NCBI GenBank assembly: GCA_002699325.1
Contig: PABS01000063.1
Location: 68,652 to 80,906 of the forward strand
Direction: 5' to 3'
From: Ponticaulis sp.
Lineage (GTDB): Bacteria; Pseudomonadota; Alphaproteobacteria; Caulobacterales; Hyphomonadaceae
Length of the DNA: 12,255 nucleotides
Shown: positions 4,711 to 9,650 of the stretch, one piece after another
Numbering within the stretch: the first letter of the stretch is position 1
Layout: each line of letters starts with the position of its first letter
Program-made: the position numbers and the translations under genes
The notes under the pieces: model-generated
The model's input: the letters and a program-made list of their open reading frames with translations, nothing else
Databases searched by the model: none
Told to the model about the DNA's origin: nothing

Positions 4711-5676
4711 ATGAGCGACGTTCAGCACGAAAGCATTATCATCATCGGCTCAGGTCCCGCTGGTTACACCGCAGGCGTCTATGCCGCGCGCGCCATGCGT
4801 AAGCCCCTGATCCTCGCAGGCTATCAGCCAGGCGGCCAGCTGACGATCACCACCGAAGTTGAAAACTGGCCGGGCGATACCGAAGTCCAGGGGCCGGACC
4901 TTATGGTCCGCATGCGCGAGCATGCCGAAGCCATGGGCGCCCGGGTGGAAGAAGACCATGTCAGCAAGGTCGACTTTCAGGTCCGTCCGTTCCGCATCGA
5001 GACCGAGAGCGGCAAGTCCTACACCGCCGATTCCGTTATCATCTCCACCGGCGCGCAAGCCAAATGGCTTGGTCTGCCATCGGAAGAAAAATTCAAGGGC
5101 TTTGGCGTTTCTGCCTGTGCAACCTGCGATGGCTTCTTCTACCGCGAGAAAGAGGTGATCGTTATCGGTGGCGGCAATACCGCCGTTGAAGAGGCACTTT
5201 ACCTCACAAATTTCGCTTCCAAGGTCACGCTGGTCCACCGCCGCGACAGCCTGCGCGCTGAAAAGATCCTTCAGGACCGCTTCATGAAGCATCCAAAAAC
5301 AGAAGTGATCTGGGACTCGGTTCTGGATGAGGTGATCGGCACCGACACGCCGCTCGGCGTTACAGGCGCGCGTCTGAAGAATGTAAACACCGGTGAAACA
5401 CGCGAAATGAACGCGCATGGCGTCTTTATCGCCATCGGCCACGCGCCATCGACTGAGCTGTTTGTCGGCCAGGTGGATATGCGCCCATCTGGTTATATCC
5501 AGACAAAACCCGGGACCGTGTCGACAAACATCGAAGGTGTCTATGCTGCCGGCGATGTGACCGACGAAACCTACCGCCAGGCTGTCACTGCGGCTGGTAT
5601 GGGATGCATGGCGGCACTCGAAGCAGAGCGATATCTTGCCGCTAGGGAAGACGAGGTCGTCGCGGCTGCCGAGTAA
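4711..5676 (+). CDS. trxB: Thioredoxin-disulfide reductase
   Basis: TrxB passes electrons from NADPH through FAD and a redox-active cysteine pair to thioredoxin in the cytoplasm. The 321-residue product has the low-Mr bacterial length. The FAD-binding dinucleotide motif GSGPAG is at 13-18, with GGQLTITTEVENWPG (41-55). The active-site CATC is C136-A-T-C139. The NADPH motif GGGNTAVEEA is at 153-162, followed by HRRDSLRAEK (176-185), where the two arginines should bind the NADPH phosphate. The C-terminal FAD segment AAGDVTDETYRQAVTAAGMG is at 279-298. The ATG at 4711 has an AAGGA site (4698-4702) 8 nt upstream. As I recall, in many alphaproteobacteria trxB directly precedes an lsrB-type regulator; here a TonB receptor gene lies between them. 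An elaborate hairpin follows the stop. Confidence 0.98.
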   Translation: MSDVQHESIIIIGSGPAGYTAGVYAARAMRKPLILAGYQPGGQLTITTEVENWPGDTEVQGPDLMVRMREHAEAMGARVEEDHVSKVDFQVRPFRIETESGKSYTADSVIISTGAQAKWLGLPSEEKFKGFGVSACATCDGFFYREKEVIVIGGGNTAVEEALYLTNFASKVTLVHRRDSLRAEKILQDRFMKHPKTEVIWDSVLDEVIGTDTPLGVTGARLKNVNTGETREMNAHGVFIAIGHAPSTELFVGQVDMRPSGYIQTKPGTVSTNIEGVYAAGDVTDETYRQAVTAAGMGCMAALEAERYLAAREDEVVAAAE

Positions 5677-5835: not shown

Positions 5836-8391
5836 ATGCGCCATTCCGGCAAAACCATAGCATTCGGTGCCAGCATGCTTGTGCTCGGTGCCTTGAGCCT
5901 GACAGCCACATCTCACGCACAGGAAGATGATACATCGGCGAATGAAAGCCGACGTATGCAAACTGTCACCGTCACATCCACCAAACGCGAACAGACCCTT
6001 CAGGATGTCCCTGTAGCAGTCAGCGTGGTCGATGAAGAAACAATCGAGAAAGCCGAAATTCAGGATCTTTCCGACCTTCAGACGCTCGTTCCGTCGCTTC
6101 GCGTCAATACGTTTCAATCTGCTGCACAGACGTCTTTCAACATTCGCGGCTTCGGCAATGGCGACAACAATGCGGGCGTCGAGCCTTCCGTCGGTGTCTT
6201 CGTCGACGGCGTGTATCGCTCGCGCTCTGCAGCGCAGATTGCTGACCTCCCCAATCTGGAACGTGTCGAAGTTCTGCGCGGTCCACAATCCACCCTGTTC
6301 GGCAAGAACGCCTCTGCCGGTGTCATTTCCATTATCACCCAGGCACCTCAGTTCACGCCCTCTGGCAGCGTCTCTGCAACGCTCGGCAATTATAATCTCA
6401 AGAAACTCAGCGGCGATGTCACAGGCCCGATCACAGACAGCCTCGCCTTCAGCCTCGCTGGCGGCTTCAATGTTCGTGACGGCTATGCCGAGGATCTCAT
6501 CTCCGGCGAGGACCTGAACGATCGGGACCGCTGGAATGTGCGCGGCCAGCTTCTCTTCGCTCCAAACGATGACCTCTCCGTTCGCATCATTGGCGACTAT
6601 AGCGAGATTGATGAAATCTGCTGCATTGGCGCCAACGTGACGACCGGCCCGACCGGCCCCGCCATTTTTGCGCTTGGCGGTCAGATCGATGTTGAAAACC
6701 CGTTCTCTTATAAGACCTACATCAACTATCTGCCCTCAAACGAGATCGAAAATTACGGCGTCTCGGGGGAAATCAATTACGAGTTCGACAACAATATCAC
6801 CCTGACATCCATCACAGCCCTTCGAAATACGGGCTATATTCAGGATGCGGATGGTGACTTCACCAGCGCAGATACGCTGGGCCAGAACTATTCTGACACG
6901 CAGATCGAAACCTTCACACAGGAGCTGCGCCTCACCAGCAATGAGGGTGAGCGGTTTGACTGGATGCTCGGCGCCTTCTATTTCGACGAAACAGTCGAAA
7001 TCAACAATGAGCTCTCCTACGGAGCGGACTTCCGCGGCTATGCGGACATCCTGTCCGGCGGCGCACTCGCGCAGGTCGAGACGCTTCTGGGTCTGCCAGT
7101 TGGCGCGACCTTTGGTCAGGATGGTCAGGGCTACAGTGAGCAGTTTGGTCAGGATAACCAGGCCTGGTCGATCTTCGGCACCGTCGACGCTTACATCACC
7201 GACAAACTCACCGCCACGGTTGGCATCAACTATACCCATGACGAAAAAGACGCTTTCGGCGATGTGATCGCCACGGACGTCTTCTCCGCACTCGATTTCG
7301 TCGGCATTGGCAATAACGTCATCTATCAGACAGCCTTTGCACAAACGCTTGCGGGCTTTGGCATCAACCCAATGGACCCGGCACAGGTTCAGGCTTTTGC
7401 GAACTCAAACCCTGCTGCTTTTGCCCAGATCCAGGCCGGCGCTCAGGCATTTGCAGATGCCAATGACGAGAACCCGGCCGTGAACTCCCTCCTTGGCCTG
7501 CAGCCACTTCAGTTCCTGCCGCCATTCGTGAATTTCCCGAATGCTGTCGAAAGCGGACAGAGCGAGGACGAGGCCGTCACCTACACGCTTCGCCTCTCTT
7601 ATGACCTCACAGACGACATCAATATCTACGGGTCCTATGCCACTGGCTTTAAAGCCACCTCATGGAACCTCTCACGCGACTCCCGTCCTTTCGCAGCCGA
7701 TATTCCGGCCCTGAGAAATGCCGGACTTGGTGTTCCAAACCTGAATGCCGGTACGCGATATGCGGGCCCCGAAGACTCCAAAGTCTATGAGATTGGCCTG
7801 AAAGCCCAGTTCGACACGGTCTCACTCAATCTTGCCCTGTTCGATCAGCAGATTGAGGACTTCCAGTCCAACGTCTTCACAGGCACAGGCTTTGCGCTCA
7901 CCAATGCGGGGGCTCAGTCATCAACCGGCGTTGAAGTTGATCTGGTCTGGAGCCCGATCGAAGGGCTGAACCTGTCCTATGGCGCGCTCTTCATGGATCC
8001 AGTGTTCGACGACTATCCGAACTCGCCATCGGGCGATCTGACAGGCGCCCGACCAGAAGGCGTTTCCGATAGCTACATGTCGATCGGCGCCAGCTATGAC
8101 TTCACCCTGCCCAATGAGTGGGACGCCTATGTGCGCGCAGACTACCAGCATGAATCGGAAGCTGATCTGTCTTACGACAATGATCCACGTCAGACGCGCG
8201 AGATCGACACCGTCAATGCCTCGCTTGGTGTAGAGACACAGAACGGGCTTCGCGTCAGTGTCTGGGGACGGAACATCTTCAATGATGAATATCTGATCCA
8301 GAGCTTCCCATCCACGGCTCAACAGGGCTCAATCACAGGCTATCCGAGCCAGCCGGCAACATACGGCATCACGCTCACAAAGGATTTCTAG
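5836..8391 (+). CDS. TonB-dependent outer-membrane receptor
   Basis: An 851-residue receptor for TonB-energised uptake across the outer membrane; the ligand cannot be told from sequence (siderophore, other metal chelate, vitamin or plant/algal compound). Residues 1-28 are a signal peptide (basic start, hydrophobic core, SHA cleavage site before QED). A TonB-box-like stretch TVTVTSTKR is at 43-51, then the plug domain (about 55-170) with QDVPVAVSVV (56-65), RGFG (104-107) and VEVLRGPQSTLFGKNASAG (144-162). The barrel follows to a C-terminal phenylalanine (F851), as usual for outer-membrane insertion, with the late receptor motif GRNIFNDEYL (811-820). Odd features are a Cys-Cys pair (262-263) and a long Ala/Gln-rich presumed loop at about 478-578. 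The start has GGGGAAG 4 nt upstream. A strong terminator follows the stop by 26 nt, so this gene is probably transcribed alone or with trxB. Confidence 0.95.
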   Translation: MRHSGKTIAFGASMLVLGALSLTATSHAQEDDTSANESRRMQTVTVTSTKREQTLQDVPVAVSVVDEETIEKAEIQDLSDLQTLVPSLRVNTFQSAAQTSFNIRGFGNGDNNAGVEPSVGVFVDGVYRSRSAAQIADLPNLERVEVLRGPQSTLFGKNASAGVISIITQAPQFTPSGSVSATLGNYNLKKLSGDVTGPITDSLAFSLAGGFNVRDGYAEDLISGEDLNDRDRWNVRGQLLFAPNDDLSVRIIGDYSEIDEICCIGANVTTGPTGPAIFALGGQIDVENPFSYKTYINYLPSNEIENYGVSGEINYEFDNNITLTSITALRNTGYIQDADGDFTSADTLGQNYSDTQIETFTQELRLTSNEGERFDWMLGAFYFDETVEINNELSYGADFRGYADILSGGALAQVETLLGLPVGATFGQDGQGYSEQFGQDNQAWSIFGTVDAYITDKLTATVGINYTHDEKDAFGDVIATDVFSALDFVGIGNNVIYQTAFAQTLAGFGINPMDPAQVQAFANSNPAAFAQIQAGAQAFADANDENPAVNSLLGLQPLQFLPPFVNFPNAVESGQSEDEAVTYTLRLSYDLTDDINIYGSYATGFKATSWNLSRDSRPFAADIPALRNAGLGVPNLNAGTRYAGPEDSKVYEIGLKAQFDTVSLNLALFDQQIEDFQSNVFTGTGFALTNAGAQSSTGVEVDLVWSPIEGLNLSYGALFMDPVFDDYPNSPSGDLTGARPEGVSDSYMSIGASYDFTLPNEWDAYVRADYQHESEADLSYDNDPRQTREIDTVNASLGVETQNGLRVSVWGRNIFNDEYLIQSFPSTAQQGSITGYPSQPATYGITLTKDF

Positions 8392-8485: not shown

Positions 8486-9391
8486 ATGGATTGGGATAAA
8501 CTCAGATCGTTTCACGCCGCCGCCGAAACCGGTAGCCTCACGGCTGCAGGAGAGCGTCTGCGTATCAGTCAGTCTGCGGTCTCCCGTCAGATTGCCGCGC
8601 TTGAAAACAATGTCGGCGTGCCCCTGTTTCAGCGGCATGCGCGCGGTCTTGTGCTCACAGATGCAGGCATCAAACTCCATCATGCCACCTCCGCCATGTC
8701 GCGCGCGGCGTCCATGGCCAGCACCATCATCAAGGACGCCAAGGACACGCCTCAGGGCGACCTCGTCGTCACAGCACCCATTGCCTTCGGTTCGACCTGG
8801 CTGATTGAGCGACTCGACAAGTTTACCGATCTTCATCCGGGCATTCACCTGCACCTGTATCTGGATGACCGCGAATACGACCTTCTAAAGCTTGAAGCCG
8901 AATGCGCCATCCGACTCTGGGCTGCAGACAAGGCAGACCTCATTCAGCGCAAGTTGATGTCGGTCAAAACCAGCCTCTATGCGTCTCCAGGCTATCTGGA
9001 GAAGAATGGAACGCCTCAGCAGCCGAAAGACCTCGACGACCACCGTATCATCGTCTACGGCCAGCAGATCTCACCCATGCACGTGATCAACTGGGCCCAG
9101 CGAGTGGGTCGGGATGACCTCACCCCTCGTGAGGCCAGCCTCACCGTCAACAATGTGGTCGGTATGGTGCGTGCAGCGGAGGCAGGTCTCGGGGTTGCCG
9201 ACCTGCCTGATTACATGATCCCGGACGATTCAAACCTTGTCAAAGTCCTGCCCGAGATCACCGGCCCGCACTTTGACCTCTATTTCATCTATCCCAGTGA
9301 CCTGCGCCGTTCGAACCGTATTGCAGCCTTTCGTGACTTCCTGACCAGTGAAATTGCCCAGTTTCAGGCCTCCGGCGGTAAAGGAAACTAG
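8486..9391 (+). CDS. LysR-type transcriptional regulator, LsrB/VtlR-like
   Basis: A 301-residue LysR regulator. Residues 1-60 hold the winged helix-turn-helix: DKLRSFHAAAETGSLTAAGE (4-23), then ISQSAVSRQIAALE (27-40) as the recognition part and LFQRHARGLVLTDAG (47-61). Residues 91-295 are the effector-binding domain. The whole protein resembles rhizobial LsrB and Brucella VtlR as I remember them: MDWDKLR start, AECAIRL (138-144), DLIQRKL (151-157), YASPGYL (165-171), DDHRII (184-189), LPDYMI (240-245) and LVKVLPEI (251-258). Those regulators control oxidative-stress, envelope and sRNA genes; the effector here is unknown. C140 is the only cysteine. I chose ATG 8486 because the alternative TTG at 8447 lies inside the terminator T-run. 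No good Shine-Dalgarno is visible (GGA at 8471-8473 only), so the leader may be short or initiation weak. Confidence 0.93.
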   Translation: MDWDKLRSFHAAAETGSLTAAGERLRISQSAVSRQIAALENNVGVPLFQRHARGLVLTDAGIKLHHATSAMSRAASMASTIIKDAKDTPQGDLVVTAPIAFGSTWLIERLDKFTDLHPGIHLHLYLDDREYDLLKLEAECAIRLWAADKADLIQRKLMSVKTSLYASPGYLEKNGTPQQPKDLDDHRIIVYGQQISPMHVINWAQRVGRDDLTPREASLTVNNVVGMVRAAEAGLGVADLPDYMIPDDSNLVKVLPEITGPHFDLYFIYPSDLRRSNRIAAFRDFLTSEIAQFQASGGKGN

Positions 9392-9394
9392 TGC

Positions 9395-9410
9395 TATGCA
9401 CTCATGCATA
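9395..9410. promoter_or_regulatory. Perfect dyad TATGCA-N4-TGCATA, candidate LysR-type binding site
   Basis: TATGCA (9395-9400), CTCA spacer, TGCATA (9405-9410): a perfect 6-bp inverted repeat starting 4 bases after the LysR stop. Nested inside is T-N10-A (9397-9408), close to the usual LysR T-N11-A pattern. Its centre is about 64 bp upstream of the predicted small-RNA start, the normal position of a LysR activation site. A TGCATA half-site also occurs at 8452-8457, before the regulator gene. That it binds this regulator is inference. Confidence 0.4.
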
Positions 9411-9431
9411 CCACCAACCCACACTTGCGTG

Positions 9432-9459
9432 TTGTGCACTGCAGCGATCCGGCTATTTT
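9432..9459 (+). promoter_or_regulatory. Possible promoter of the small RNA
   Basis: TTGTGC (9432-9437) and TATTTT (9454-9459) are spaced by 16 bp and predict a start near 9466. The -35 is poor, as expected for an activator-dependent promoter. The AT-rich TATTTTAAT stands out in this GC-rich stretch. Confidence 0.3.
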
Positions 9460-9465
9460 AATGTC

Positions 9466-9571
9466 TGTGCATGACGTCTCATCATGCAGCCTGATCTCCT
9501 GATTGGGCGTTTCCTCCCCGAGACACACCTTTAATGCCGGGCGCTTTTTATAGCTGCCCGGCTTTTCTTTT
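9466..9571 (+). ncRNA. Candidate small regulatory RNA (AbcR/alpha-r15-like by position)
   Basis: No credible protein gene lies between the LysR gene and dps. The + strand has the layout of a trans-acting sRNA of about 105 nt. A 5' hairpin has a perfect 7-bp stem (TGCATGA 9468-9474 / TCATGCA 9482-9488) and a 7-nt loop. Next is a mostly unpaired region with two CU-rich anti-Shine-Dalgarno stretches, TCTCCT (9495-9500) and TCCTCCCC (9512-9519). An intrinsic terminator follows at 9536-9571. The loop segment GTCTC (9476-9480) can pair with GAGAC (9520-9524), giving a possible pseudoknot. As I recall, in Sinorhizobium and Agrobacterium the AbcR (alpha-r15) sRNAs are neighbours of lsrB, and Brucella VtlR activates an AbcR sRNA; position, size and CU-rich motifs agree. 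I cannot confirm sequence homology. The alternative is a long 3' UTR of the LysR gene. Confidence 0.45.
9536..9571 (+). terminator. Intrinsic terminator (end of the candidate sRNA and/or LysR transcript)
   Basis: GCCGGGC (9536-9542) pairs perfectly with GCCCGGC (9556-9562); a further 3 bp (GCT/AGC) can form inside past a bulge. The T-rich tail TTTTCTTTT (9563-9571) follows. It lies 145 nt after the LysR stop, far for that gene alone, which supports a separate short transcript ending here. Confidence 0.88.
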
Positions 9572-9587
9572 CTCAAATACCGACCAG

Positions 9588-9624
9588 AAAAAGAAAAAGG
9601 TCGCTACCTTGATGATAGCGACCT
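9588..9624 (-). terminator. Intrinsic terminator of dps
   Basis: AGGTCGCTA (9598-9606) and TAGCGACCT (9616-9624) form a perfect 9-bp stem with a 9-nt loop. On the - strand it is followed by a T-rich tract (complement of the A-rich 9588-9597). It begins 27 nt after the dps stop and lies back to back with the + strand terminator at 9536-9571. Confidence 0.9.
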
Positions 9625-9650
9625 CTTATTTTGTTGCATGTGCGCTGTAG

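Follow-up and report, generated by a model that had tools for sequence, protein, structure and literature searches.

The window, the whole stretch of 12,255 bases analysed here (G000:C45:68652-80906), has Ponticaulis and other Hyphomonadaceae as its nearest named relatives in a scan of named genomes, including P. koreensis DSM 19734. It carries a LysR-type regulator gene which is followed, on the same strand, by a very probable small RNA gene. The genes and features of the locus are as follows.

4711-5676, plus strand: trxB, thioredoxin reductase gene (TIGR01292 over cutoff)
5836-8391: TonB-dependent receptor gene, between trxB and the LysR gene
8486-9391, plus strand: LysR-type regulator gene, LsrB/VtlR-like (Pfam HTH_1 and LysR_substrate)
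9396-9409: dyad ATGC-N6-GCAT resembling an operator and proposed as the LsrB site; its centre is at about -64 relative to the predicted start
9454-9459, plus strand: -10-like TATTTT, seen by eye; predicted transcript start about 9466
9466-9571, plus strand: small RNA gene of about 105 nt (fold z -6.1), conserved behind the LysR gene among family members
9468-9488, plus strand: 5' hairpin P1, in which 9468-9474 pairs with 9482-9488; changes on both sides in 4/4 inner pairs
9476-9480, plus strand: candidate pseudoknot strand PKa, GUCUC, in the P1 loop; can pair with 9520-9524
9489-9508, plus strand: second hairpin P2 from folding, 9489-9496 with 9501-9508, loop UCCU; few changes in relatives
9509-9519, plus strand: putative anti-Shine-Dalgarno seed GUUUCCUCCCC, alpha-r8 core; invariant in a 16-sequence family alignment
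9510-9519, plus strand: second CU-rich stretch, UUUCCUCCCC; either unpaired or within the loop closed by a weak GUUUC/GAGAC hairpin
9520-9524, plus strand: candidate pseudoknot strand PKb, GAGAC, directly 3' of the seed; pairs with PKa
9536-9571, plus strand: intrinsic terminator from folding, stem 9536-9562 and U-rich tail 9563-9571; stem and tail also in relatives
9651 to about 10118, opposite strand to the RNA and convergent with it: Dps-like gene

A preliminary description of this DNA called the LysR gene LsrB/VtlR-like, and on sequence comparison it is: its protein shares 41-45% identity over about 290 aa with those of three Rhizobium-type loci in which the LysR gene adjoins an ar15 RNA. 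An LsrB profile matches 256 of 387 genomes of the class at E<=1e-50; the weaker of these matches are possibly paralogues. For comparison, 83 class loci were used, made up of the 30 best-scoring and 53 picked at about one per family among the matches listed (three are of the window's family). An N-terminal signature like MDWDKLRxFHA is present in the window protein, and nearly all 83 loci have the same start. Many families of the class, the window's Hyphomonadaceae included, have LsrB-like genes, whereas a 2025 paper calls LsrB unique to Rhizobiales (PMC11975290). The three genomes sampled from family f2, which belongs to the window's own order, give no LsrB match at E<=1e-50.

The window protein has one cysteine, Cys140, the equivalent of C144. 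C273, the other member of the C144-C273 redox pair of A. tumefaciens LsrB, is absent; PMC11975290 describes it as the functionally important cysteine there. C273 is missing as well from the LysR protein of L037, a neighbour of an ar15 RNA; the pair is thus perhaps no defining trait of the family. Since the window protein has Cys140 as its single cysteine and no C273, the signal that it senses could differ.

In A. tumefaciens the genes are arranged as trxB-vtlR-abcR1-abcR2 and LsrB/VtlR activates AbcR1, as reported in PMC7486931; LsrB is also reported to drive AbcR1 in S. meliloti (PMC8844928). In the window, trxB lies 2.8 kb upstream of lsrB with the TonB-receptor gene intervening. Of the 83 class loci, 72 have trxB upstream of lsrB in the same orientation and no more than about 1.5 kb away; none of the three loci from the window's family belongs to these 72. 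Six named genomes of the same genus (L219-L224) have a TonB-dependent receptor gene directly upstream of lsrB, as in the window.

Direct reading and folding find the dyad, promoter, hairpins and terminator in the order previously proposed, over 9396-9571, and the length of about 105 nt suggested for the transcript fits the predicted 9466-9571. The minimum free energy (MFE) of 9466-9571 is -42.4 kcal/mol, compared with -23.8 +/- 3.1 for shuffles (z -6.1; 0/200 as low). The opposite strand folds well too (z -5.0); therefore, fold energy alone cannot tell the strand. The terminator stem at 9536-9562 is unlisted in a simple terminator scan, probably owing to its bulge. On the minus strand, a strong terminator-like site at 9595-9627, near the RNA's own terminator, ends the Dps-like gene.

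Two details of the earlier picture hold in part. The promoter, previously called weak, is fair at best: TATTTT can be seen by eye as a -10-like box, but a consensus scan finds no plus-strand sigma-70 site in the gap and one on the minus strand (9482-9455). Across the whole window, six sigma-70 consensus sites are found where 5.2 are expected, which is chance level. Boxes like TATCTA or TATATA lie at the matching place in many relatives, as judged by eye rather than by a statistical test. The two CU-rich stretches, previously described as unpaired, are only roughly so: most of the first is inside the 4-nt loop of P2, and the second, if not free, forms the loop of the weak GUUUC/GAGAC hairpin. 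P2 is altered in some relatives and is conserved with few changes overall.

A DNA search with 9380-9600 gives matches at E<=0.01 in 23 of 61 genomes (the window's own and 60 relatives), several of the weakest being chance or ordinary alpha-r8 RNAs. All six other genomes of the same genus match at 81-90% identity, the matches covering part of the stretch or the greater part of it. The core pattern, allowing at most one mismatch, occurs in 69 of 105 family genomes, which represent 7 of 10 genera, and in a few of these genomes it has no LysR link. Removal of eight of 68 family rows leaves 60 distinct copies of the RNA. The rows dropped are L023, L029, L030 and L183 (alpha-r8-like without LysR), L129, L130 and L184 (chance) and L186 (truncated). 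L024 and L026, like L129, L130 and L184, look like chance matches and have no LysR match in the stretch.

The LysR gene lies upstream on the same strand in 57 of the 60 copies; for the other three, this place is outside the fetched stretch or contig. At E<=1e-40, the LysR gene is present in 37 of 57 family genomes tested, with one match in each. The 20 genomes without it include all 15 g4 genomes, and 19 of the 20 also lack the core pattern; the single core-pattern match among them (G015) is an alpha-r8-like copy without LysR. The RNA is also carried, with a changed P2 3' strand which the pattern misses, by 15 further g3 loci and one g6 locus. In each of two g6 genomes there are two RNA copies, with spacings of about 0.2 and 1.4 kb. 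No recognisable RNA is found in 330 nt read after the LysR gene of G574 (L217) or in 440 nt read at a g2 LysR fragment in G022; in G588, the locus ends at a contig edge.

Comparison of the gap across relatives finds the RNA conserved and its helices changing in a compensatory way, and in the family alignment the seed and the P2 3' strand are the most conserved part. The small RNA gene previously proposed is very probably present, being conserved downstream of the LysR gene with a fold z of -6.1. A terminator is expected after lysR, and the gap might hold only this and a protein-binding dyad, with no functional RNA. Such a reading is hardly credible: it is the seed and P2 strand, not the terminator, that vary least, and the helices show compensatory change.

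It is unlikely, though more plausible, that the RNA is a 3'UTR product of lysR. SorX, described in PMC6238624 as a 3'UTR product, is a precedent; the RNA comes after lysR in the same orientation, and the simple terminator scan lists no site on that strand between the two. However, the dyad and the -10-like box lie between lysR and the RNA and keep a near-fixed distance to the RNA, whereas the distance from lysR to the RNA varies.

The dyad at 9396-9409 is the sole exact ATGC-N6/7-GCAT in the 12,255-base window. Exact ATGC-N6-GCAT is found in 50 of the 58 family copies with enough upstream sequence, and seven more have one mismatch; 47 of the 50 exact dyads sit 113-119 nt before the seed. Class-wide, exact ATGC-N7-GCAT occurs within 250 nt after lsrB in 34 of 83 loci (shuffle mean 0.35, maximum 1). 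Other spacers after lsrB in these loci give 0-2 (3-5 and 8-11) or 3 (N6, all in the window's family). The half-sites of the family N6 dyad and the class-wide N7 dyad are identical; the spacing differs. The dyad fits the VtlR box GCAT-N3-TG-N3-T given in PMC7486931, and ATGCATGTCTGGCAT in L035 holds both forms. Conservation of this operator suggests that LsrB would bind at the dyad. LysR control of the RNA, which had been put forward earlier, is plausible: the operator-like dyad, some 64 nt ahead of the predicted start, and the RNA are conserved together.

GUCUC in the P1 loop (9476-9480) can pair with GAGAC (9520-9524), just past the CCUCCC seed. In the first 20 of 20 copies examined, a complementary pair is present at the matching place, although in some it is not the best-scoring pair. 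The best pairs of the 60 copies fall into 18 distinct strand combinations, for example GUCUC/GAGAC, GGUUCCG/CGGAACC, UGCCUC/GAGGCA, GGGUCCUG/CAGGACCC and GGGCCUCG/CGGGGCCC. The best pair of L015 differs; GUCUC/GAGAC is present there too. Since the search will report a best pair for any sequence, a swapped-partner control was used: own partners score 20.3 on average versus 14.6 when swapped, and the own score is reached by 16% of swaps. The P1 strands also change in step (UGCAUGA/UCAUGCA, AUGCC/GGCAU, AUGCG/CGCAU, GUGUU/GACAC, AGCAAG/CUUGCU).

The joint geometry of P1 and the pseudoknot (PK) is present in 54 of 57 distinct copies, compared with 19.5% of dinucleotide shuffles; three copies lack it. 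Its score is above all 100 own shuffles in 43 of the 57 and at 5% or below in 50. The geometry is also found in 16 of 16 further loci when P1 is allowed at 3 bp. Pair counts used 19 of 23 condensed types, leaving out three g6 types and L143; L027 has no P1 of 4 bp and gave no string for the count. Changes on both sides are seen in 4/4 P1 and 4/5 PK pairs, 99.6% of cells are paired, and covariation is 0.606 versus 0.220 in shuffled data; the strands counted had been selected for pairing. One of five measures, further pair types, is not unusual (100/500 shuffles).

The window's own 5-bp pseudoknot is not significant alone, as 7/100 shuffles reach its score; the pseudoknot is nonetheless probable on the compensatory changes across the family. 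In the window, the MFE structure favours the competing GUUUC/GAGAC hairpin, which is seen in the window's genus; in L031, the MFE structure forms the long-range helix without P1. P1 and the long-range helix may therefore be mutually exclusive, and a two-state switch is as open as a stable knot. The stretch from L211 folds with no unusual stability (z -0.66). Six copies of the core have no LysR; such an arrangement is absent from three of them and only scattered in the others. L029, an alpha-r8 copy without LysR, scores 24 versus 22 for the window; its relatives L023 and L030 have none.

The best Rfam match of the window RNA is suhB (RF00519), at 27.5 bits versus a gathering score of 41, and so below cutoff. 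Six of 14 related loci give seven suhB matches (26.5-36.2 bits, none above 41), and the other eight give none at E<=0.5. The window core GGGCGUUUCCUCCC is identical to that of alpha-r8 (MmgR of S. meliloti, SisA-D of Caulobacter), and the sub-threshold match would point the same way. The window RNA has in common with alpha-r8 a weak hairpin, the GUUUCCUCCC seed and a terminator. The alpha-r8 10-mer UUUCCUCCCU is described in PMC12559287 as a proven base-pairing seed in Caulobacter SisA, where it pairs with ribosome-binding sites. The window has UUUCCUCCCC, and several relatives have UUUCCUCCCU itself, after the weak hairpin and before the terminator. Unlike alpha-r8, the window RNA has an extra 5' hairpin with a pseudoknot strand, and is linked to lsrB instead of a gene for N-formylglutamate amidohydrolase. 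An alpha-r8 copy in the window's own genome (L001:1501-1580, 54.1 bits, over the Rfam cutoff) adjoins a gene that, by eye, looks like N-formylglutamate amidohydrolase, as reported for Caulobacter sisA (PMC12559287).

The core, the best Rfam match and the two over-cutoff suhB matches elsewhere in the own genome might all mean that this is an ordinary MmgR/SisA paralogue whose neighbourhood is incidental. This is improbable. Not only is the match below the gathering score and absent at E<=0.5 from 8 of 14 related loci; it is also unspecific, because eight of 12 other LsrB loci also give suhB matches below cutoff, at 24-36 bits, and as a family assignment it was downgraded. Furthermore, the linkage, the operator and both helices are conserved across genera, an arrangement which the six core copies without LysR show scattered (three) or not at all (three).

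The RNA had previously been taken for a possible AbcR (alpha-r15) homologue, and this assignment is rejected: Rfam ar15 (RF02345) finds nothing at E<=10, whether the whole window or just 9430-9585 is searched, and nothing at E<=0.01 in the own genome. A true homologue diverged in place is a doubtful prospect, if a slightly better one than an incidental paralogue. As with AbcR1 and AbcR2, the RNA gene lies downstream of lsrB/vtlR on the same strand, with anti-Shine-Dalgarno seeds of the UUUCCUCCC type (AbcR's in a hairpin loop) and an upstream operator; the same operator type is found upstream of the first ar15 RNA in L049. In AbcR, however, the seed in the first hairpin loop comes first and GUUCCCCUCU follows, whereas the order in the window is P1/PK, P2 and seed, with a core identical to alpha-r8. 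SorX (RF02784) also gives no match in the window at E<=10; CcsR is treated in PMC10253847.

Other RNAs are found after lsrB elsewhere in the class. GUGAA(G/U)CCUCCCUGU follows lsrB in 37 of 83 loci (38 with a looser version of the pattern), 28 of them with exact CGUCUCCCAGACGUGAAGCCUCCCUGU, versus 0/83 antisense. The R1 module, GUGAAGCCUCCCUGU, often after CGUCUCCCAGAC, with a terminator, lies downstream of lsrB in loci within L046-L128 (e.g. L115:551-652(-), L121:2468-2569(+)), and reaches no Rfam cutoff in 12 loci scanned. CTCC is in a predicted hairpin loop in 24 of 83 LsrB loci on the sense strand and in 1 of 83 antisense; the mean number of such loops is 0.43 per locus versus 0.19 in sense-strand shuffles. 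L080:2471-3101(+) has three R1-type RNAs in a row behind a single lsrB.

At E<=0.001, an R1 model built from 28 sequences has matches in 132 of 241 class genomes; the weakest of these matches may be other CCUCC RNAs. Distances were taken for the 76 genomes with an lsrB place and an R1 match both among the matches listed, with other R1-positive genomes left out. In 61 of these, the best R1 match lies downstream of lsrB in the same orientation and no more than 600 nt away; the total rises to 70 when 6 kb are allowed, and in the remaining six the match is elsewhere. R1 may be a distant relative of SorX, since eight of 12 loci of this kind give SorX matches below cutoff, the best with E 3.5e-7. 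R1 and the window RNA have in common the place after lsrB, CCUCCC seeds, a terminator and the operator half-sites; the GUGAAGCCUCCCUGU module is absent from the window, and the R1 model leaves the window RNA unmatched at E<=1. R1 matches weakly to the family relative L027 (12.3 bits) and to the own-genome alpha-r8 copy L001 (21.3 bits).

The arrangement of LsrB, operator and anti-Shine-Dalgarno RNA looks class-wide, with differing RNAs, because ATGC-N7-GCAT is found in 34/83 and GUGAA(G/U)CCUCCCUGU in 37/83 LsrB loci. A regulator-RNA pair beyond Rhizobiales, which the preliminary description had supposed, is supported, and more widely than guessed; the survey suggests that the pairing known from rhizobia is far more widespread. 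Among the open-licence papers searched, none was seen to describe an lsrB-linked RNA outside Rhizobiales, although the alpha-r8 distribution study cited in PMC12559287 may list such loci. There is about an even chance that the circuit is ancestral to Alphaproteobacteria. The regulator and palindrome would then have stayed while one RNA gave way to another or was reshaped: Rhizobium-type genomes would have AbcR, many other families R1, and Hyphomonadaceae an alpha-r8-type RNA whose pseudoknot would present or gate the seed. The window RNA may descend from a common ancestor with AbcR and R1, or from an alpha-r8 copy which took the place.

Sites for the seed give thin support for particular targets. 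The seed complement GGGGAGGAAA has seven sites in the own genome; one is before a start codon (PQQ-domain protein) and another is the RNA gene itself. It also occurs in a DctP-type transporter gene and in a gene without a Pfam match, each in 3 of 4 same-genus genomes searched and not in the own genome. In the DctP-type transporter gene (L255:1501-1514, L263, L250), GGGGAGGAAA is fully seed-complementary and lies directly before the start codon. From its seed, the RNA would be expected to act as an anti-Shine-Dalgarno repressor.

The anatomy of the RNA, its conservation, its linkage to the LysR gene, the position of the operator and the compensatory changes are seen by comparing sequences. The reading preferred here, with a probability of roughly 0.7, is that the window holds a conserved trans-acting small RNA gene that is alpha-r8-like, forms a pseudoknot and is controlled by the adjoining LsrB/VtlR-type regulator. 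The regulator would bind ATGC-N6-GCAT at 9396-9409 and activate transcription from the weak promoter, so that an RNA of about 105 nt is made. The P1 loop would then pair with the five to eight bases directly 3' of the seed to form an H-type pseudoknot; if both helices form at once, the long loop so closed would contain P2 and the alpha-r8-type seed UUUCCUCCCC and could gate it. Alternatively, the hairpin and the long-range helix would be two exchanging states. Through its seed, and probably with the help of Hfq, the RNA would pair with ribosome-binding sites rich in purines on its target mRNAs and lower their translation.

VtlR/LsrB with AbcR has so far been studied in rhizobia and Brucella, and the survey indicates that the regulator, the palindrome and a neighbouring anti-Shine-Dalgarno RNA occur in many families of the class, which offers a simple genomic handle on the role of this circuit in free-living marine bacteria. 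The long-range helix covarying around a known seed can be tested by mutation. The arrangement would also be a case in which one regulator keeps its site while its RNA output changes family.
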